Position numbers and translations under genes: made by a program. Positions 7,867 through 16,164 of a stretch of 42,364 nt of DNA are shown one piece after another. The stretch covers positions 102,632 to 144,995 of the forward strand of contig JAUQPE010000011.1 in the NCBI GenBank assembly GCA_030550515.1, given 5' to 3'. This stretch comes from Thermotogota bacterium. GTDB taxonomy: Bacteria > Thermotogota > Thermotogae > Thermotogales > Thermotogaceae. The notes beneath the pieces are model-generated. The model saw only the letters and a program-made list of their open reading frames with translations. It searched no databases and was not told the origin of the DNA. Position 1 is the stretch's first letter. Each line of letters starts with the position of its first letter.

Positions 7867-9045
7867 ATGAGAAGATTACTCTTGGTACTTCTTGTGGTGT
7901 TAAGCGCTCTTTCAGTTCTCGCCCAAACCAAGTTGGTCATCTGGTGCTCGGAAAAGCAAGTGGACATACTCCAGAAATTAGGGGAAGAGTTCAAGGCAAA
8001 ATATGGGGTAGAGGTTGAGGTACAGTACGTGAATTTCTCGGATATCAAGCCCAAGTTCTTGACGGCAGCCCCACAGGGACAAGGCGCTGACATCATTGTG
8101 GGCGCGCACGATTGGGTTGGAGAGCTTGTGGTGAATGGCCTTTTGGAGCCCATTCCAAACTTTGCAGATCTGAAGAACTTCTACGACACGGCCCTTCAAG
8201 CGTTCTCGTACGGTGGGAAGCTTTACGGGCTCCCCTACGCGATGGAAGCCATCGCACTCATATACAACAAGGACTACGTCAAGACACCTCCCAAGACGGT
8301 GAGTGAGATGATAGAACTCGCGAAGAAGATCGACAGAGAATTTGGAGGAAGCGTAAGGGGATTCATCATGCCAGCTACTGAATTCTACTTTGCGGCGCCC
8401 TTCATATTCGGATACGGTGGTTACGTGTTCAAAGATACAGGTAAAGGTTTGGACGTGAGAGACATCGGTCTTGCGAACGAGGGTGCCGTGAAGGGTGTGA
8501 ACCTCTTGAAGAAGATGGTCGACGAAAGAATCCTCAAACCCAGCGACAACTACCAGATCATGGATTCGATGTTCAGGGAAGGCAAAGCCGCGATGATCAT
8601 AAACGGACCATGGGCGGTGAAGGCATACAAGGATGCCGGCATCGATTACGAAGTTGCGGCGATACCCAATCTGGAAGCGAACGTTCCTGCGAAACCCTTC
8701 GTCGGTGTCCAAGGTTTCATGGTGAACGCCAAGTCTCCCAACAAGCTCATCGCGATGGAGTTCCTCATCAGTTTCATAGCGAGGCGTGACACCATGCACA
8801 GGATCTATCGCGCCGATCCAAGGCTTCCCGCCAGGAAAGATGTGCTTGAACTCGTAAAAGACAATCCAGATGTGGTTGGGTTCACACAGAGTGCTTCCAA
8901 CGGTATTCCAATGCCGAATGTCCCACAGATGGCAGCGGTGTGGGCTGCCATGAACGACGCTTTGAACCTCGTACTCAACGGTAAAGCAACGACAGAGGAA
9001 GCCTTGAAGACCGCCGTCGACAGGATCAAGGCTCAGATAAAGTGA
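7867..9045 (+). CDS. malE: MalE-type sugar-binding protein
   Basis: Extracytoplasmic binding protein of a maltose-type (CUT1) ABC transporter, 392 aa. Signal peptide at residues 1-20 (MRRLLLVLLVVLSALSVLAQ). The mature protein has MalE hallmarks: LVIWCSEKQ, DIIVGAHDW, GLPYAMEAIALIYNKD, and AAMIINGPWAV around residue 240. GAGGAGGTGGAGCGAG precedes the ATG. It heads an operon with malF, malG and a galactanase, so a galacto-oligosaccharide ligand would fit the context. I recall that the T. maritima counterpart in this locus (MalE1) bound maltose, maltotriose and mannotetraose in vitro, so substrate is unsettled. Confidence 0.9.
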   Translation: MRRLLLVLLVVLSALSVLAQTKLVIWCSEKQVDILQKLGEEFKAKYGVEVEVQYVNFSDIKPKFLTAAPQGQGADIIVGAHDWVGELVVNGLLEPIPNFADLKNFYDTALQAFSYGGKLYGLPYAMEAIALIYNKDYVKTPPKTVSEMIELAKKIDREFGGSVRGFIMPATEFYFAAPFIFGYGGYVFKDTGKGLDVRDIGLANEGAVKGVNLLKKMVDERILKPSDNYQIMDSMFREGKAAMIINGPWAVKAYKDAGIDYEVAAIPNLEANVPAKPFVGVQGFMVNAKSPNKLIAMEFLISFIARRDTMHRIYRADPRLPARKDVLELVKDNPDVVGFTQSASNGIPMPNVPQMAAVWAAMNDALNLVLNGKATTEEALKTAVDRIKAQIK

Positions 9046-9100: not shown

Positions 9101-10834
9101 TTGAAAAGACTGCTGAAGCTCTTTCTGTGGTTTCTGTTCGCCCTCTTGAACGCCTTCTTTTTGTGGAGCGGATTTTTCCTTTTCAAAAACGGTTATTACG
9201 AACTGGCGATCGTGCTCTACTCTCTCGTTTTCTTGATAAACTTCTTCGTCTTCAATCCCAAGGGATACCCATACCGTTACGTCATACCCGCCCTTTTCTT
9301 GCTCTTCATCCTCGTGCTGTATCCTATTTACTTCACGGTGAAGGTGGCGTTCACCAACTATGGAACGGGGCACTACATGTCCAAACAAGAAGCCTTGGAG
9401 AGACTCCTATACGATCCGAACTTCACGTACGTCGTGGACGATGAAAAAGTTTCTTTCAAGGTCTTCGTCGTCTACGACGGTCTCACGCCTACCGATGATT
9501 TTCTGATCGTTTTCAAAGTTGGTGAACAACTTTTCCTTGGAGAGAAACCCGTCCCGGTGAGGGCAAGGGGTAGGAACGTGATCTTGAGTGAAGGGAGAAT
9601 GATTCCCGTAACCGCCGAGCAGGTGAACGTTGAAGGGAAGACCTACCGTTTTGTGCCTTGGTCTGAAGACTTGGCGGATCTAAAAATGATAGTTCTTGGA
9701 GAAAAGACGTACAGAGCGTTTTATTACTCTGAGGATGAATTTTTGAGGCTCAACGCTCCCCATTTTAAGAGCAGGATAGGTCAAGTTCACCTGAGTCGAG
9801 CCGATTACATCGACCCGCTGGGTCGAAAGTTCGCCCTCAGGGTTGGCGAAACGGGCGATTGGAAGTTCGTGAGAGTGGAGAGGTTGTATCGCCTTGTCTA
9901 CAGGGAGGCGATGGAGGACGGAAAGGTTCGACGCAAGATGGTGTTGGTGAACAACCTCACCGGTAAGGACGTTGTGGAGAAAGATGGTGCCTTCTACGAT
10001 GTGGACGAAAATGGCGAGCTCAGGTTCTTGATTGGATTCATAGATTTCGTTGGCTGGAGGAATTTCCTCAGGATCGTGCGAGACCCCAGGATCTCCGGCC
10101 CATTCTTGAGGATATTCTTGTGGACTGTTGTGTGGGCTACCTTGAGCGTTGTGCTCTCGCTCATGGTTGGCCTTCCCTTCGCCTTGGTTTTGAACGATCC
10201 AAAACTGAAGGGTAGGAACCTGTACAGGACCCTTCTGATCGTACCCTGGGCCATTCCCGTCTTCATCTCGGCGCTCGTCTGGAGGAACGGCCTTCTGAAC
10301 GAAAGTTATGGTGTAATAAACAAGATACTCCTTCCAGCTTTGGGTCTCAATCCAGTGAAGTGGTTCAACGATCCTTTCTGGGCAAGGGTTGGGGTTCTCT
10401 TGGTCAACGTTTGGCTCACGTTTCCTTACATGATGACCATCTCCCTTGGGGCCCTTCAGAGCATTCCCCCCGAGCTCTACGAGGTGGCTGTGATCGATGG
10501 AGCGGGAAAGCTCAAGCGCTTCGCGTACATCACGTTCCCTTACCTGATGGCCATCATTGCTCCTTTACTCGTCAGCAGCTTTGCCTTCAGTTTCAACAAC
10601 TTCACCATCATCTACTTGATCACGGGTGGGGGTCCTCCGATCCCAGGCTCAACCACCCCAACGGGTTACACGGACATCCTCATATCTTACGTCTACAAAC
10701 TCGCCTTCGAGGCGGGACAGGGCCAAGATTTCGGCTTTGCGAGCGCCATTTCCATAATGATCTTCTTCCTGGTGGGTGGGATAAGCTTTTTGAATTTCCG
10801 ACTCTCCGGCACCTTTGAAGAGGTGAGCAGGTGA
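9101..10834 (+). CDS. malF: MalF-type sugar ABC transporter permease
   Basis: Inner-membrane permease of the maltose-type transporter, 577 aa. Three N-terminal helices (about 6-27, 35-52, 58-84) are followed by a large extracytoplasmic P2-like domain of about 245 residues (85-330). The MetI-like core then starts at LRIFLWTVVWATLSVVLSLM (about 335 on), with the EAA coupling loop YEVAVIDGAGKLKRFAYITFP near residue 460. The N-terminal helices and large P2 loop match classical MalF. TTG start at 9101 with GGGGAGAGGT directly upstream. Overlaps the malG start (TGATG). Confidence 0.9.
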   Translation: MKRLLKLFLWFLFALLNAFFLWSGFFLFKNGYYELAIVLYSLVFLINFFVFNPKGYPYRYVIPALFLLFILVLYPIYFTVKVAFTNYGTGHYMSKQEALERLLYDPNFTYVVDDEKVSFKVFVVYDGLTPTDDFLIVFKVGEQLFLGEKPVPVRARGRNVILSEGRMIPVTAEQVNVEGKTYRFVPWSEDLADLKMIVLGEKTYRAFYYSEDEFLRLNAPHFKSRIGQVHLSRADYIDPLGRKFALRVGETGDWKFVRVERLYRLVYREAMEDGKVRRKMVLVNNLTGKDVVEKDGAFYDVDENGELRFLIGFIDFVGWRNFLRIVRDPRISGPFLRIFLWTVVWATLSVVLSLMVGLPFALVLNDPKLKGRNLYRTLLIVPWAIPVFISALVWRNGLLNESYGVINKILLPALGLNPVKWFNDPFWARVGVLLVNVWLTFPYMMTISLGALQSIPPELYEVAVIDGAGKLKRFAYITFPYLMAIIAPLLVSSFAFSFNNFTIIYLITGGGPPIPGSTTPTGYTDILISYVYKLAFEAGQGQDFGFASAISIMIFFLVGGISFLNFRLSGTFEEVSR

Positions 10835-13314
10835 TGGTCGAGAAAAGGCGCGATTACATAAGACACCCTGTCCTCATCTTCCTGGTTGTTGTGGTGGTGT
10901 TCCCAGTCCTGTGGGTTGTGTCGACTTCTTTCAGGAGGGACGAGGCTGCGTTCTCCACAAAATTGTTCAGTTCCAGGCTCACCGTGCAGCACTACAGGGA
11001 CTTGGTGAGTCCCGAGAGGAACATACCAGTCCTGATCCAAAACCTCCAGAACATGTTATGGAGAGTGAAACCTTACAGCGATTGGACTTATGAAAGGCTG
11101 AAGAAGGCGAAAGACGACGAGTTGAAAAGACTGAAAGATTATCTCTCCGAAACGAAGAGGAGGTACGATTCCGCAAAGGCTTCCTACCAAAACGTGGTCA
11201 ACAAGATGAGCGAGAGGGCGGAAACGGTCAAGACACAGGTTGTAAATTTGGCAAAGGCACTGGAAGAGAAGGTGAGCGTACCTAGCTTGTCCTTTTCTCC
11301 GGAACTCGGTGCGGCCCTTTACGAAGTCTTGAGAGAAAGGGGTTACTCTTCCGATGCTCACCTGGCCTTGAAAACGGATCTCGAAAAGTTCACAGGTATC
11401 GATACGAGTTCGCCAGAAGGTTTCCAAACAGCGGTTGAACAGCTTCGGATTTTCTACGAGCAACTCGGAGGTACATATCGTGGGGAACTCTCAGCTTTGG
11501 AAGAAAAGATGAAGAACATCCAGAAAGAATTGGAAAGCGTCAAGAGAAGGCAAGAGCTCGTTCAGGGTGAAATCTTGGGGATGAACCTCATCTTTGAGAG
11601 AGATTTGTTTCCGGAATTCACCAGCATTTCTGAAACGCTGACTGGGTTAGTTTCTCTAAAAAGGAACCTCGAACAAACCAAGATGGCAGCGATATTCTTC
11701 GTAGACGATGAAATCTTCCTGAGGACCGTTCCTTCCCTTCTCGAGCGTTCGAAAGAGATTCTCGAGAAGCTGGAAGTTTTCTCCGACCATCGCAATCTAG
11801 CTGAGAGGTTGAAAAGTGTGGTGGCTTCGTTGGGAGAACTCTCAGAGATTGATGAAGTTGTCAGGTCGAAGACCGCTTATGCCGATTTAGTGAAAGCCTA
11901 CGAGAACTTGTATCCAAGGCTTGAGAGGTCCCTAACGGAGCTTTCCAACAACCTGGAAGTCTTTGAGAGCAAATTCTCGCTCCTCAAGGAATTGAACGGA
12001 GAGATCGAAAAACTTCAGAGAGAGCTTCAAGCCTTGAGCAGGGATAAGGAAGCGTTGAAGAAAAAGGTGGAGGCCTTGGAGAAATCCCTGGAGGAACCTA
12101 GGAGGACCTTATCCCTGAAGGTCTTCTCTCATCAACTTCGAGAGAGGATCGATTCCCTCGAAACGATCAAGGGGTTGAGAACACCTGATTTGCTCAAATA
12201 CTCTGCCTTCATCGAGTTTCTCAGGAACTTTGCGAACAGCTACAGACCTCGTGGTGAGGAAGACGAGGTTTTGAAAGTCGTCCGTGAAACACTTAGGAAG
12301 ATGAGATGGATAGAAGAGTATCGCACCTTCGTTTCCAAATTCGAGAATTTCTCGAGGAATCTGGGAGACGTGCTCGGAAAGTTCGAACAACAGTTAAAGG
12401 ACTTCGAAAACGTTTCCGACCAACTCTTGAGGGTGGCCTCATCCGGCGTTTTCGTGACATCTGAGATTTTGAACAACGCCTACGACTTGGTGAAGATGGA
12501 TTTCGTGAGGAGGGTAAGGGCGGAGATGTCGGTAGCAGCGAGAAAAGCAGGAACGTTGATGGACGTGCTGCCCTTCTCGGATCTCAGGAGGGATCTGAGA
12601 AACGTGGACAGTCAGCTCTTCAGGATAGACCAGATATGGAAACAAAAGACCAAACATTACTTCTGGAGATGGGTCTTGAACTCTGTCGTCGTCTCGTTGG
12701 TGGTGGCTTTCATAACGACGGCCGTCTGCGCTGTAGCCGCTTATCCGTTCAGCAGGATGAGGTTCTTTGGAAGACGTTACGGAATCATGGCACTCCTCCT
12801 GATACAGATGTTCCCCGGTGTCATCTTCATGATCGCCATATACGATCTCTTGAACTTCTTGGGGAAGTACATCCCCTTCATGGGTGTGGATTCGCTCGGT
12901 GGTTTGATCTTCGCCTACCTCACGGGTATCGCCTACAACATGTACTTGATCAAGGGGTTCTACGACACGATACCCGACTCGCTCGAAGAAGCGGCGATAG
13001 TGGATGGGGCCACGAGGTTTCAGAGCTTTTACAAGATTGTTCTGCCGCTCGCAAGGCCGATCCTAACGGTGGTCTTCTTGCTCGTTTTCATAGGAACGTT
13101 TAACGAGTACGTGGTGGCAAGAATCGTACTTCAGCGGATAGAGAACTACACGTACGCGCTCGGTTTGAACGTCTTCGCCACGGGACCTTACGAGACGGAA
13201 TGGGGACTGTTCACGGCGGCGGCGCTCTTGGGGATGATGCCGATGGTGATCCTGTTCTTGTCGCTCCAAAGGTATCTCGTCAGTGGCCTCACGAGGGGTG
13301 CCATCAAGGGTTGA
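10834..13314 (+). CDS. malG: MalG-type permease with giant coiled-coil insertion
   Basis: Second permease of the maltose-type transporter, 826 aa from the ATG at 10834 (GTG at 10831 also possible), versus about 280 for ordinary MalG. Helix 1 is near residues 14-35 (VLIFLVVVVVFPVLWVVS). The core resumes at about residue 610 (RWVLNSVVVSLVVAFITTAV), with the EAA loop EEAAIVDGATRFQSFYKIVLP near 717. Between them, about residues 70-605 are almost entirely charged helical sequence with heptad-like segments, such as IEKLQRELQALSRDKEALKK. By topology this insertion lies in the first extracytoplasmic loop. The frame is intact throughout, so it is not a fusion artefact. I recall similarly long MalG proteins in Thermotoga. 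No MalK-type ATPase is encoded in the window. Confidence 0.88.
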   Translation: MVEKRRDYIRHPVLIFLVVVVVFPVLWVVSTSFRRDEAAFSTKLFSSRLTVQHYRDLVSPERNIPVLIQNLQNMLWRVKPYSDWTYERLKKAKDDELKRLKDYLSETKRRYDSAKASYQNVVNKMSERAETVKTQVVNLAKALEEKVSVPSLSFSPELGAALYEVLRERGYSSDAHLALKTDLEKFTGIDTSSPEGFQTAVEQLRIFYEQLGGTYRGELSALEEKMKNIQKELESVKRRQELVQGEILGMNLIFERDLFPEFTSISETLTGLVSLKRNLEQTKMAAIFFVDDEIFLRTVPSLLERSKEILEKLEVFSDHRNLAERLKSVVASLGELSEIDEVVRSKTAYADLVKAYENLYPRLERSLTELSNNLEVFESKFSLLKELNGEIEKLQRELQALSRDKEALKKKVEALEKSLEEPRRTLSLKVFSHQLRERIDSLETIKGLRTPDLLKYSAFIEFLRNFANSYRPRGEEDEVLKVVRETLRKMRWIEEYRTFVSKFENFSRNLGDVLGKFEQQLKDFENVSDQLLRVASSGVFVTSEILNNAYDLVKMDFVRRVRAEMSVAARKAGTLMDVLPFSDLRRDLRNVDSQLFRIDQIWKQKTKHYFWRWVLNSVVVSLVVAFITTAVCAVAAYPFSRMRFFGRRYGIMALLLIQMFPGVIFMIAIYDLLNFLGKYIPFMGVDSLGGLIFAYLTGIAYNMYLIKGFYDTIPDSLEEAAIVDGATRFQSFYKIVLPLARPILTVVFLLVFIGTFNEYVVARIVLQRIENYTYALGLNVFATGPYETEWGLFTAAALLGMMPMVILFLSLQRYLVSGLTRGAIKG

Positions 13315-13325
13315 GGAGGAGAGAG

Positions 13326-15149
13326 ATGAAAGGGGTGTTTCTGTTTCTGATGTTGGGGGTGAGCGCCTTTGGTATCTTTGTGAACCCAATACCGGACCTC
13401 CCGCCCGATTTCGTGAGAGGCGTAGATGTTTCCATGCTGTACGAGATCGAGAGGTTGGGAGGAAAATTCTACGACGGCGGAATCGAGAAGGACTGCCTTC
13501 AGATACTGAAGGATCACGGGGTGAACTGGATCAGGTTGAGGGTGTGGAACGACCCGAAAGATGAGGCAGGAAATCCGTTGGGTGGTGGAAACTGCGATCA
13601 CATCAACATGACGGAGATCGCAAAAAGGGCCAAAAGCCTAGGATTGAAAGTCCTTTTGGACTTCCACTACAGCGACTGGTGGGCGGATCCAGGTAAGCAG
13701 AACAAACCAAAGGAATGGAAACACCTGCGCGGGGACCTTTTGGAGAGGGCGGTTTACTCCTACACGAAGATGGTCCTCAACCACATGAAGAGAAACGGCG
13801 CCCTTCCCGACATGGTACAGGTCGGTAACGAGCTCAACAACGGGTTCCTCTGGCCCGACGGTATGATCTCCGGACCGGGCGCGGGCGGGTTCGACAACTT
13901 CGTGAAACTCCTGAAGGCGGCGATCAAGGCGGTCAGAGAGGTCGACCCTTCCATAAGGGTGGTCGTGCATCTGGCTGACGGAGGGAACAACAGCCTCTAC
14001 CGGTGGTTCTTCGACGAGATAACAAGAAGAGGCGTGGACTTCGACGTGATCGGTGTTTCGTACTATCCTTATTGGCACGGTACTCTCGAAGATCTGAAGA
14101 AGAACCTGTACGATATCTCGCAGAGGTATCAAAAGGACGTCCTGATCGTCGAGACCGCCTACGCTTGGACCCTTGATGACGCGGATGGACATCCGAACAT
14201 CTTCGGTGGGAAGGACATGGAACTCCAGGGAGGTTACAAAGCGACGGTTCAAGGTCAGGCATCCTTCATCAGGGACCTCATGGAGATCGTGAAGGGAGTG
14301 CCAAACGGTAGGGGTTTAGGGATATTCTACTGGGAGGGTGCCTGGATCCCTGTGAAGGGGGCTGGTTGGAAGACTGGTGAAGGGAACCCCTGGGAAAACC
14401 AGGCGTTGTTCGATTTTAAGGGGAACGCTCTTCCATCCCTAGACGTGTTCAAGCTGGTGTACGAGGGAAAGCCAGTCCCCCTCCAGATCGTCGAGGTTTT
14501 ACCAATCGAACTCAAGACAACCTTGGGCGAGATACCAAAGTTCCCGGAAAAAGTACAGGTTGTGTTTTCAGACGATTCCATCCGATCTCATCCTGTCGAG
14601 TGGGAGTTGTCGGATCCCAGCATCGTGGAAAGGCCTGGCACGTACGAGATCGTCGGCCGTGTTGAAGGATTAGACATCTCCGTTGTTGCCCGCCTCGAGG
14701 TCGGTGGCAGCAGAAATTATTTGAAGAACCCAAGTTTCGAAACGGGAGAGTTCGCGCCCTGGGAGGTATCGGGTAACAAGCGGGCGGTGAAGGTGGTCTT
14801 GGCGAATCCACCAAGCAACGCCCACGATGGAAGGTACGCGGTCAACTACTGGCTGGACGAAAGCTTCGAATTCGAGATCTACCAGGAAGTCAAGGACCTT
14901 CCGAAGGGAGTGTACGAGTTGAGTTTTTGGGTTCAGGGGATAAAAGGTGGTAAAGTCATTCTCAAGGTGAGTGGGTATGGCGGTGAAGAGAAGAGGTTGG
15001 AAGTGGACACCACAGGATGGCTCGAGTGGAAGAATCCAAGGTTGACGCTTGAGGTGACGACGGGCCAGATCAGGGTTGGCGTTTCAGTCAAAGGGAGGGC
15101 GGGTGACTGGGGATTCGTGGACGACTTCCAACTCTTGAGGAGGGAGTGA
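13326..15149 (+). CDS. Secreted GH53 endo-beta-1,4-galactanase with CBM61-like module
   Basis: Hydrolyses beta-1,4-galactan outside the cytoplasmic membrane, 607 aa. Start at ATG 13326, after GGAGGAGAGAG; the open frame further upstream overlaps malG and is not used. Signal peptide at about 1-16. The GH53 barrel spans about 25-385, with the acid/base Glu169 (VGNELNNGF) and nucleophile Glu276 (LIVETAYAW). A bacterial Ig-like segment (about 390-458) follows. The C-terminal module (about 460-607, starting NYLKNPSFETGEFAPW) matches what I recall of CBM61, a galactan-binding family first described in the T. maritima GH53 enzyme. Its place after malEFG suggests that its products feed the neighbouring transporters. 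Confidence 0.92.
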   Translation: MKGVFLFLMLGVSAFGIFVNPIPDLPPDFVRGVDVSMLYEIERLGGKFYDGGIEKDCLQILKDHGVNWIRLRVWNDPKDEAGNPLGGGNCDHINMTEIAKRAKSLGLKVLLDFHYSDWWADPGKQNKPKEWKHLRGDLLERAVYSYTKMVLNHMKRNGALPDMVQVGNELNNGFLWPDGMISGPGAGGFDNFVKLLKAAIKAVREVDPSIRVVVHLADGGNNSLYRWFFDEITRRGVDFDVIGVSYYPYWHGTLEDLKKNLYDISQRYQKDVLIVETAYAWTLDDADGHPNIFGGKDMELQGGYKATVQGQASFIRDLMEIVKGVPNGRGLGIFYWEGAWIPVKGAGWKTGEGNPWENQALFDFKGNALPSLDVFKLVYEGKPVPLQIVEVLPIELKTTLGEIPKFPEKVQVVFSDDSIRSHPVEWELSDPSIVERPGTYEIVGRVEGLDISVVARLEVGGSRNYLKNPSFETGEFAPWEVSGNKRAVKVVLANPPSNAHDGRYAVNYWLDESFEFEIYQEVKDLPKGVYELSFWVQGIKGGKVILKVSGYGGEEKRLEVDTTGWLEWKNPRLTLEVTTGQIRVGVSVKGRAGDWGFVDDFQLLRRE

Positions 15150-15162
15150 GGGGGTTCTCCTT

Positions 15163-16164
15163 GTGAAGAAGAAGTTCGTGACCATCAAAGACATAGCCGA
15201 AAGGGCAGGTGTCTCGATAAACACAGTCTCTAGGGCTTTGAACAACAAACCAGACATCAGCGAGGAAACGAAGAGGAGGATACTCGAGATAGCGAGGGAA
15301 TTGGGATACGTGAAAGATTTCACGGCTTCTTCTTTGAGAAGTAGGGAAACCCGCATCGTCGGGGTGATTCTGGCCGACAGCGCCAACCCGTTCTATTCGG
15401 AAGTCTTGAAGGGTATAGAGGCCGCTTCCAGAAAGTATGGCTATCAGATCATCTTGATGAACACGGAAAGGATCTACGAAAACGAGGTGAAGGCCATAGA
15501 AACGCTCCTTCAAAGAAGGGTAGACGGGCTTCTCATAGCCCCAGTTCAAGAGAAAGACGATGACATAAGGGCTCTAGTCGATCGCAAGATTCCCGTCGTG
15601 ATAGTTGGGAGACATTTTGAAGGTGTGGACGTCGACGAGATACACAGCGACGAGGTGAAGGGTGGTTACCTCGCAACGAAGCACTTGATAGAAAAGGGTA
15701 GAAGAAACGTGCTGATGATAAACGGCTACCTGTTCAAATCGGCGGCCTACATGAGACTTGAAGGGTACAAGAAAGCGTTGAGAGAATACGGGATACCACT
15801 CCGTGACGATTACGTGATCATAACCGACATAGACATAGAGGACGGCTACGAGGCCGTCTACAACGCGCACAAGAGAGGTCTGAAGTTCGACGGCATATTC
15901 TGTTACAACGACCTCATGGCGTTTGGGGCCATGAAGGCTTTGAGGGATCTGGGTTACAGGATACCGGACGACGTGGCGGTTGTGGGGTACGACGACATAG
16001 TCTACGCTTCCTACGTTTGTCCCACGCTGACCACGGTGCGGATCAAGAAGTACGAAATGGGGTACGAAGCCTTCAGGATGCTCCTTCAAAGGATCAAAGG
16101 TCTCAGGAAGAAAACGAAGAGGGTCATCTTGGATGTGGAGCTCGTGGTGAGGGAGAGCGCGTGA
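15163..16164 (+). CDS. LacI-family regulator of the galactoside locus
   Basis: Repressor of 333 aa. HTH/hinge TIKDIAERAGVSINTVSRALN, then a sugar-binding effector domain (VGVILADSANPFYSEVLKGI, VDGLLIAP, VVGYDDIVYASYVCPTLTTVRI). GTG start at 15163 with GAGGGGG upstream, 13 bp after the galactanase gene, so it is transcribed with malEFG. The operator-like TGTTAACGTTCACG in the promoter of the following operon is a likely target. From memory equivalent to TM1200. Effector probably galactose or a galacto-oligosaccharide, by context only. Confidence 0.88.
   Translation: MKKKFVTIKDIAERAGVSINTVSRALNNKPDISEETKRRILEIARELGYVKDFTASSLRSRETRIVGVILADSANPFYSEVLKGIEAASRKYGYQIILMNTERIYENEVKAIETLLQRRVDGLLIAPVQEKDDDIRALVDRKIPVVIVGRHFEGVDVDEIHSDEVKGGYLATKHLIEKGRRNVLMINGYLFKSAAYMRLEGYKKALREYGIPLRDDYVIITDIDIEDGYEAVYNAHKRGLKFDGIFCYNDLMAFGAMKALRDLGYRIPDDVAVVGYDDIVYASYVCPTLTTVRIKKYEMGYEAFRMLLQRIKGLRKKTKRVILDVELVVRESA

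Follow-up and report, generated by a model that had tools for sequence, protein, structure and literature searches.

An ancient coiled-coil insert in the MalG-type permease of Thermotogota sugar importers, predicted to form a long periplasmic arm

Type I ABC importers are textbook machines, and their MalG subunit has almost no extramembrane part on the outer face. The MalG-type permease encoded in the window, by which we mean the whole stretch of Thermotogota DNA analyzed here (42,364 nucleotides of contig JAUQPE010000011.1), carries instead several hundred residues of coiled-coil character between its first two membrane helices. This raises the questions of what the additional sequence looks like, when it was acquired, and what it may do for a sugar importer.

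The identity of the protein follows from its BPD_transp_1 core (Pfam, residues 646-820 only), helices TM2-TM6, the EAA motif, and the adjoining malF and malE genes, which together place it among the permeases of CUT1 type I systems. It shares TM2-TM6, the EAA motif, a P2-bearing MalF, and MalE with the E. coli MalFGK2-MalE importer (2r6g, 3puv), with a core identity of ~45%. The NCBIfam MalG model scored 242 bits, just below its cut-off of 261, which is due to the insert or to divergence, and MalE passed its own NCBIfam model (314 bits, cut-off 291). The gene order is malE-malF-malG followed by the GH53 endo-galactanase gene, with LacI-type regulators at both flanks of the operon. The T. maritima counterpart, TM1190-1204, is a galactoside cluster with GanEFG (PMC3750489). 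Because of the endo-galactanase neighbor, the LacI regulators, and this galactoside cluster, the substrate is predicted to be galacto-oligosaccharides rather than maltose; the operon probably serves galactan, and its ‘MalG’ is probably a galacto-oligosaccharide permease. The coordinates of all features are collected in Table 1.

We aligned E. coli MalG (296 aa) to the 827-aa protein by phmmer, and the alignment fell into two blocks, residues 4-55 and 613-827, so that E. coli residues 60-82 (~23 residues) are replaced by residues 56-612 (~550 residues), a net gain of 531 aa. The best bounds of the insert itself are residues 60-604 (~11008-12642), giving ~545 residues that split MalG between helices 1 and 2. 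A previous sequence-only reading had proposed a ~530-residue insert at 11040-12655 (residues 70-608) in a MalG about three times the normal size; the insert is real, its position was right within about ten residues, and the measured size ratio is 2.8. That reading had also placed the insert between helices 1 and 2 outside the cytoplasmic membrane, and our data agree. No membrane segment was found in residues 60-600, where the largest 19-residue Kyte-Doolittle mean is 1.19, compared with >1.6 for TM1 (8-36) and the first core helix (610-641). As the N terminus of MalG is cytoplasmic in the established topology, the insert is placed in the periplasm. Its heptad-like Glu/Lys/Leu character, noted in that reading, was borne out by composition (E+K+L 33% in the insert, 18% in the core) and by the spacing of hydrophobic residues, which recur every 3.42-3.58 positions in each of the four long helices (p = 0.0005 per helix, 2000 shuffles). 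A chance fusion of open reading frames or an assembly error is ruled out by the 96 genomes that carry a long MalG.

Table 1. Coordinates of the operon genes, the parts of the MalG-type protein, and the second long permease (positions in the window unless a locus is named)
Feature	Coordinates	Strand	Remarks
malE-type binding protein	7867..9045	+	392 aa; signal peptide without lipobox cysteine (soluble)
malF-type partner	9101..10834	+	577 aa; P2 periplasmic domain ~65 aa larger than in rod-less systems
malG-type permease gene (ganG/malG1)	10831..13314	+	827 aa; GTG start overlaps malF stop
TM1	10852..10947	+	residues 8-39
Inner base	10948..11088	+	residues 40-86; length fixed at 46-47; well conserved
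Helix h1	11089..11271	+	residues 87-147, 61 aa; coiled-coil periodicity 3.58
Elbow 1	11272..11412	+	residues 148-194; 26-105 aa among relatives, very variable
Helix h2	11413..11670	+	residues 195-280, 86 aa; periodicity 3.58
Head, presumed tip	11671..11871	+	residues 281-347; helices 294-314 and 318-338; fastest-evolving part
Helix h3	11872..12162	+	residues 348-444, 97 aa; periodicity 3.46; 95-111 in relatives
Elbow 2	12163..12264	+	residues 445-478; 11-65 in relatives
Helix h4	12265..12441	+	residues 479-537, 59 aa; periodicity 3.42; 58-64 in relatives
Outer base	12442..12642	+	residues 538-604; length 65-68; conserved
MalG core TM2-TM6 with EAA coupling motif	12643..13311	+	residues 605-827
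GH53 endo-galactanase with Big_4 and carbohydrate-binding domains	13326-15149		Pfam
LacI regulator 3' of GH53 gene	15163-16164		Pfam
Second long permease	L085:3403-5511	-	also L086, L087, L089, L184-L249

For the architecture of the insert, we built an AlphaFold2 model of the MalG-type protein with 62 relatives (pTM 0.61; pLDDT ~90 in the insert and lower in the membrane core). Four long helices were predicted (residues 87-128 continued by 130-147, 195-280, 348-444, and 479-537), together with shorter ones at 157-188, 294-338, and 451-470 and a base made of 65-77 and 545-603, so the rod-like helices suspected from the sequence were also predicted by the model. Along the chain, helices of 61, 86, 97, and 59 residues follow one another; an elbow separates the first two and another the last two, the head lies between the middle pair, and the base is found at both ends. 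Because this order is nearly a mirror image, we infer that the insert is a two-strand antiparallel coiled-coil hairpin, in which h1 would pack on h4 and h2 on h3, interrupted midway by an elbow and bearing a small head. If the hairpin is extended, 147 helical residues going up and 156 coming down at 0.148 nm per residue would give a rod of ~22-23 nm. Judging between hairpin and folded bundle by helix lengths, a four-helix fold-back seems less likely because h2 and h3 exceed h1 and h4 and would hit the membrane. Reduced-alphabet mutual information over the 62 sequences (Neff 38) gave no helix-pairing signal above background, and the covarying pairs between elbow 1 and elbow 2 appear to be driven by shared gaps.

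The profile matches were to SMC, Rad50, myosin, and designed single-chain antiparallel coiled coils, and Foldseek returned, beyond MalG, weak matches to MukB, Smc5/6, Rad50, and the dynein stalk. The arms of SMC, Rad50, and MukB and the dynein stalk resemble the predicted rod in being antiparallel hairpins that leave and re-enter a globular domain, and there is a weak compositional likeness. However, the insert has neither the hinge nor the head ATPase of these proteins, and the matches are those expected of any coiled coil; we therefore rejected homology to SMC, Rad50, or myosin. With respect to function, Foldseek searches with the models of the rod permease and of the second long permease described below returned only the MalG/CUT1 core.

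To see how the insert evolves, we aligned 62 homologues and measured identity to the window protein. The lengths of h1 (61-70), h3 (95-111), h4 (58-64), and the outer base (65-68) are nearly fixed, although the constancy of the helices may be exaggerated by the gap placement of MAFFT at 20% identity, and the alignment also puts a length change in h2 (75-137). Elbow 1 (26-105), elbow 2 (11-65), and the head (45-79) vary. Identity is 71% in the core, 38% in the base, 20-24% in the helices, and 17% in the head; among close relatives, the same ranking appears as 87% in the core, 76% and 60% in base residues 40-60 and 61-86, 46% in h4, 31-35% in h1-h3, and 28% in the head. In the outer base, G539, L576, and D593 are nearly invariant and W603 is invariant. 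Read from the alignment, fixed length with free sequence, and a conserved base with a drifting tip, is a spacer-like pattern, and it is unlike that of a tip with a conserved specific partner. Within the two Thermotoga-type groups, we also observed that elbow 2 (12163-12264) is clearly better conserved (60-70%) than its neighbors h2 and h3.

Long MalG proteins of this kind were described by Noll et al. in 2008, who reported a ~500-aa hydrophilic region of unknown function between TM1 and TM2 of Thermotogales MalG1 and MalG2, missing from MalG3 and other MalG, and judged it a recent acquisition (PMC2246101). The window permease is the same kind of protein, as it has such a region and falls in a clade apart from the short MalG, so the sequence-only reading was correct in stating that Thermotoga has long MalG. 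We found no later work on the insert in the open literature. The 2008 study covered few genomes and gave no coiled-coil description, whereas here the form is seen across the phylum, with one origin, a predicted rod, and an enlarged MalF-P2. Thus, the existence of the insert has been known since 2008, and what is new here is its architecture, its age, its single origin, and the co-elaborated MalF.

A long MalG is present in all 14 genomes of the window's family group and, counting open frames of ≥600 aa, in 96 of the 103 Thermotogota genomes, with sizes of 638-933 aa among those examined. The best relatives in Bipolaricaulota, Bacillota, Chloroflexota, Atribacterota, Deinococcota, and Spirochaetota are short (intact ORFs of 281-417 aa). 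A survey of Bipolaricaulota revealed no long form, all 40 matches having open frames of 267-417 aa, and a survey of Deinococcota gave three matches with open frames of 312, 469, and 501 aa. When the insert columns were left out of the MalG tree, the 31 long MalG grouped in a single clade (SH-aLRT 99) with one change of state, and the short Thermotogota MalG were placed on two further branches, among Bipolaricaulota and relatives. Because of the single long clade, its phylum-wide spread, and the short relatives outside, the tree and survey indicate that the insert is old: a single gain, preceding the phylum or early in it, was followed by retention on every sampled branch of the long clade. ‘Recent acquisition’ (PMC2246101) is thus unsupported, and the published view is corrected. 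The taxonomic survey that the sequence-only reading had called for therefore found the insert in most of the phylum and in none of the relatives examined outside it; inside the long clade no close relative lacked it, the short paralogues being on other branches. Insert length is not universal, since in L061 (638 aa), the deepest branch among the long forms, the insert measures only ~350 aa.

The short paralogues (L060, L062, L073, L080, L082, L083, and L084) have, for the most part, MalE, MalF, and a GH13 maltodextrinase as neighbors. Their presence is consistent with horizontal transfer, and their tree positions suggest two transfers. One genome, G031, has only the short form and may be a natural test of life without the rod.

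The insertion point bears on the partners of the permease. Residues 70-72 of E. coli MalG are in direct contact with MalE (PMC3150292), and they sit inside the loop that the insert replaces. MalF in rod systems has 568-598 aa compared with 510-524 in most rod-less systems (the rod-less L106 MalF reaches 559 aa only through a long N-terminal extension), and in the rod systems examined, the extra ~65 residues are spread through P2; this comparison is with rod-less bacterial MalF other than that of E. coli. MalF-P2 is the main MalE-binding platform. Because the MalE-contact loop is replaced, P2 is enlarged, and MalE is soluble, the sequences point to a base that works with MalF-P2 and MalE. Because MalF-MalG-MalE importers that lack the rod also occur in this phylum, with the same envelope, transport as such does not require it. 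Near-fixed helix lengths at 20-24% identity and the absence of any loss in the examined long clade point to selection on the rod.

From these observations, our preferred reading, to which we give a probability of roughly 0.38, is that the insert is a spacer or guide arm of fixed length at the face where the binding protein docks. It would be a periplasmic arm, ancestral and specific to the phylum, on a type I (CUT1) sugar importer in which the MalG P1 loop has been replaced by a conserved helical base bearing a long antiparallel coiled-coil hairpin. The base would pack on MalF-P2 and the MalE docking face, and the stiff rod would rise from the mouth of the transporter to or past the peptidoglycan, fixing the position of the importer with respect to the wall and retaining soluble MalE close to the mouth in the wide periplasm. 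The tip would capture no specific partner.

A different role for the tip, in which it binds peptidoglycan, Omp-alpha, or another toga protein and thus tethers the importer to the sheath or holds it beneath porins, has a precedent in this envelope, where coiled-coil rods are known spacers: Omp-alpha, a 316-residue coiled coil, keeps the toga ~50 nm from the cell (PMC3387000), and the SlpA-type connectors (PMC9388160) are likewise coiled-coil rods that stand in a wide periplasm, in this envelope or in ones like it. In our surveys, the MalG rod was also found only in the toga-bearing phylum. However, Omp-alpha (~50 nm) and SlpA (~28 nm) form oligomers of parallel coils and have both SLH and outer-membrane anchors, whereas the MalG rod is an intrachain loop with neither anchor, and we claim no homology between them. 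Pfam found no SLH domain, other wall-binding domain, or outer-membrane anchor in the MalG-type protein, and the head, the putative anchor, is variable in length and is the least conserved part both phylum-wide and among close relatives. The earlier suggestion that the rod spans the periplasm to the outer membrane or sheath fails on length, as an extended hairpin of ~23 nm at most is set against a toga gap of ~50 nm (PMC3387000), and the poor conservation of the head weakens the companion suggestion that the far end docks toga proteins. We therefore regard an envelope anchor as unlikely. An arm of 23 nm covers about half of the gap and could possibly reach or pass the peptidoglycan.

The head or shaft might instead bind MalE directly and raise its local concentration, and the facts that suggest a working base (the replaced MalE-contacting loop, a MalE without a lipid anchor, and a larger P2 in the rod clade) could be read in this way too. 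However, the MalE homologues of rod systems are ~47-70% identical to the window MalE while shaft and head are at 17-24%, and a specific MalE site should be better conserved than that, which makes direct capture quite unlikely. Docking of the binding protein had also been raised by the sequence-only reading; the part that stands is that the insert adjoins the MalE docking site (PMC3150292), and MalE may contact the insert base, but specific docking by the far end is weakened by the same least conserved head.

The spacer reading must also be weighed against a non-adaptive origin, in which an insertion-tolerant loop gained an arm in the phylum ancestor that has no role of its own and was kept because its loss would destabilize the base. 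The freely drifting elbows and head, the rod-less systems in the same kind of cell, and a second permease of the phylum with an unrelated giant insert at the same place would all fit such an expansion. Yet the signs of selection described above (helix lengths and retention throughout the examined long clade) speak against it, and we consider it improbable. Rods of neighboring importers might also zip together, clustering the transporters or fixing their order; conserved length with free sequence suits coiled-coil pairing, and Omp-alpha of the same envelope is a four-stranded coil according to the title of Lupas et al. 1995 as cited in PMC3387000. But helices within a single chain can form such pairs among themselves and no result here favors an intermolecular interface, so that self-association appears very improbable. 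Thermal adaptation alone is not favored.

If a ruler reading of the arm is true, it would be a new mechanical element in ABC importers. A diverged but length-conserved arm of ~23 nm throughout a phylum bears on how soluble binding proteins find their transporter in a periplasm tens of nanometers wide. Thermotoga proteins are stable and an assay for E. coli MalFGK2 exists, so the question is testable.

The second permease mentioned above is a CUT1 protein (UgpE/MalG-like, ~700-805 aa) that occurs, with a TM1-TM2 insert of ~430-560 aa, in nearly all genomes of the phylum, although it is absent from the window's own genome. In Thermotoga, its gene adjoins those for a binding protein, a MalF-like permease, and a PHP-domain protein. 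The model of this second insert shows a beta-stranded base and a helical domain with helices of ≤32 residues and no long rod; Foldseek gave no match for it beyond the permease core, and no similarity to the MalG insert is visible. Repeated growth of the TM1-TM2 loop in one phylum suggests a shared envelope need or a growth-tolerant loop. A combined reading, in which giant arms on the binding-protein-facing loop arose independently at least twice (the MalG rod and the UgpE/MalG-like insert) and the MalG arm is a fixed-length ruler determining the place in the wide periplasm at which the importer and its binding protein, or the importer and the wall, come together, is doubtful. The correlation between the lengths of MalG and the second long permease (r = 0.82) is not evidence, being mostly due to families f7-f9.

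Family group f8 has a third type of long permease, which is shorter (566-567 aa, with a ~280-aa insert; L242:269-1966, minus strand; L243:663-2363, plus strand). The gene of the second long permease is disrupted in two genomes (loci L088:2927-5013, L246, and L245): it is split in G004, into overlapping frames of 150 and 545 aa, and is also broken in G070. Relatives have intact copies.
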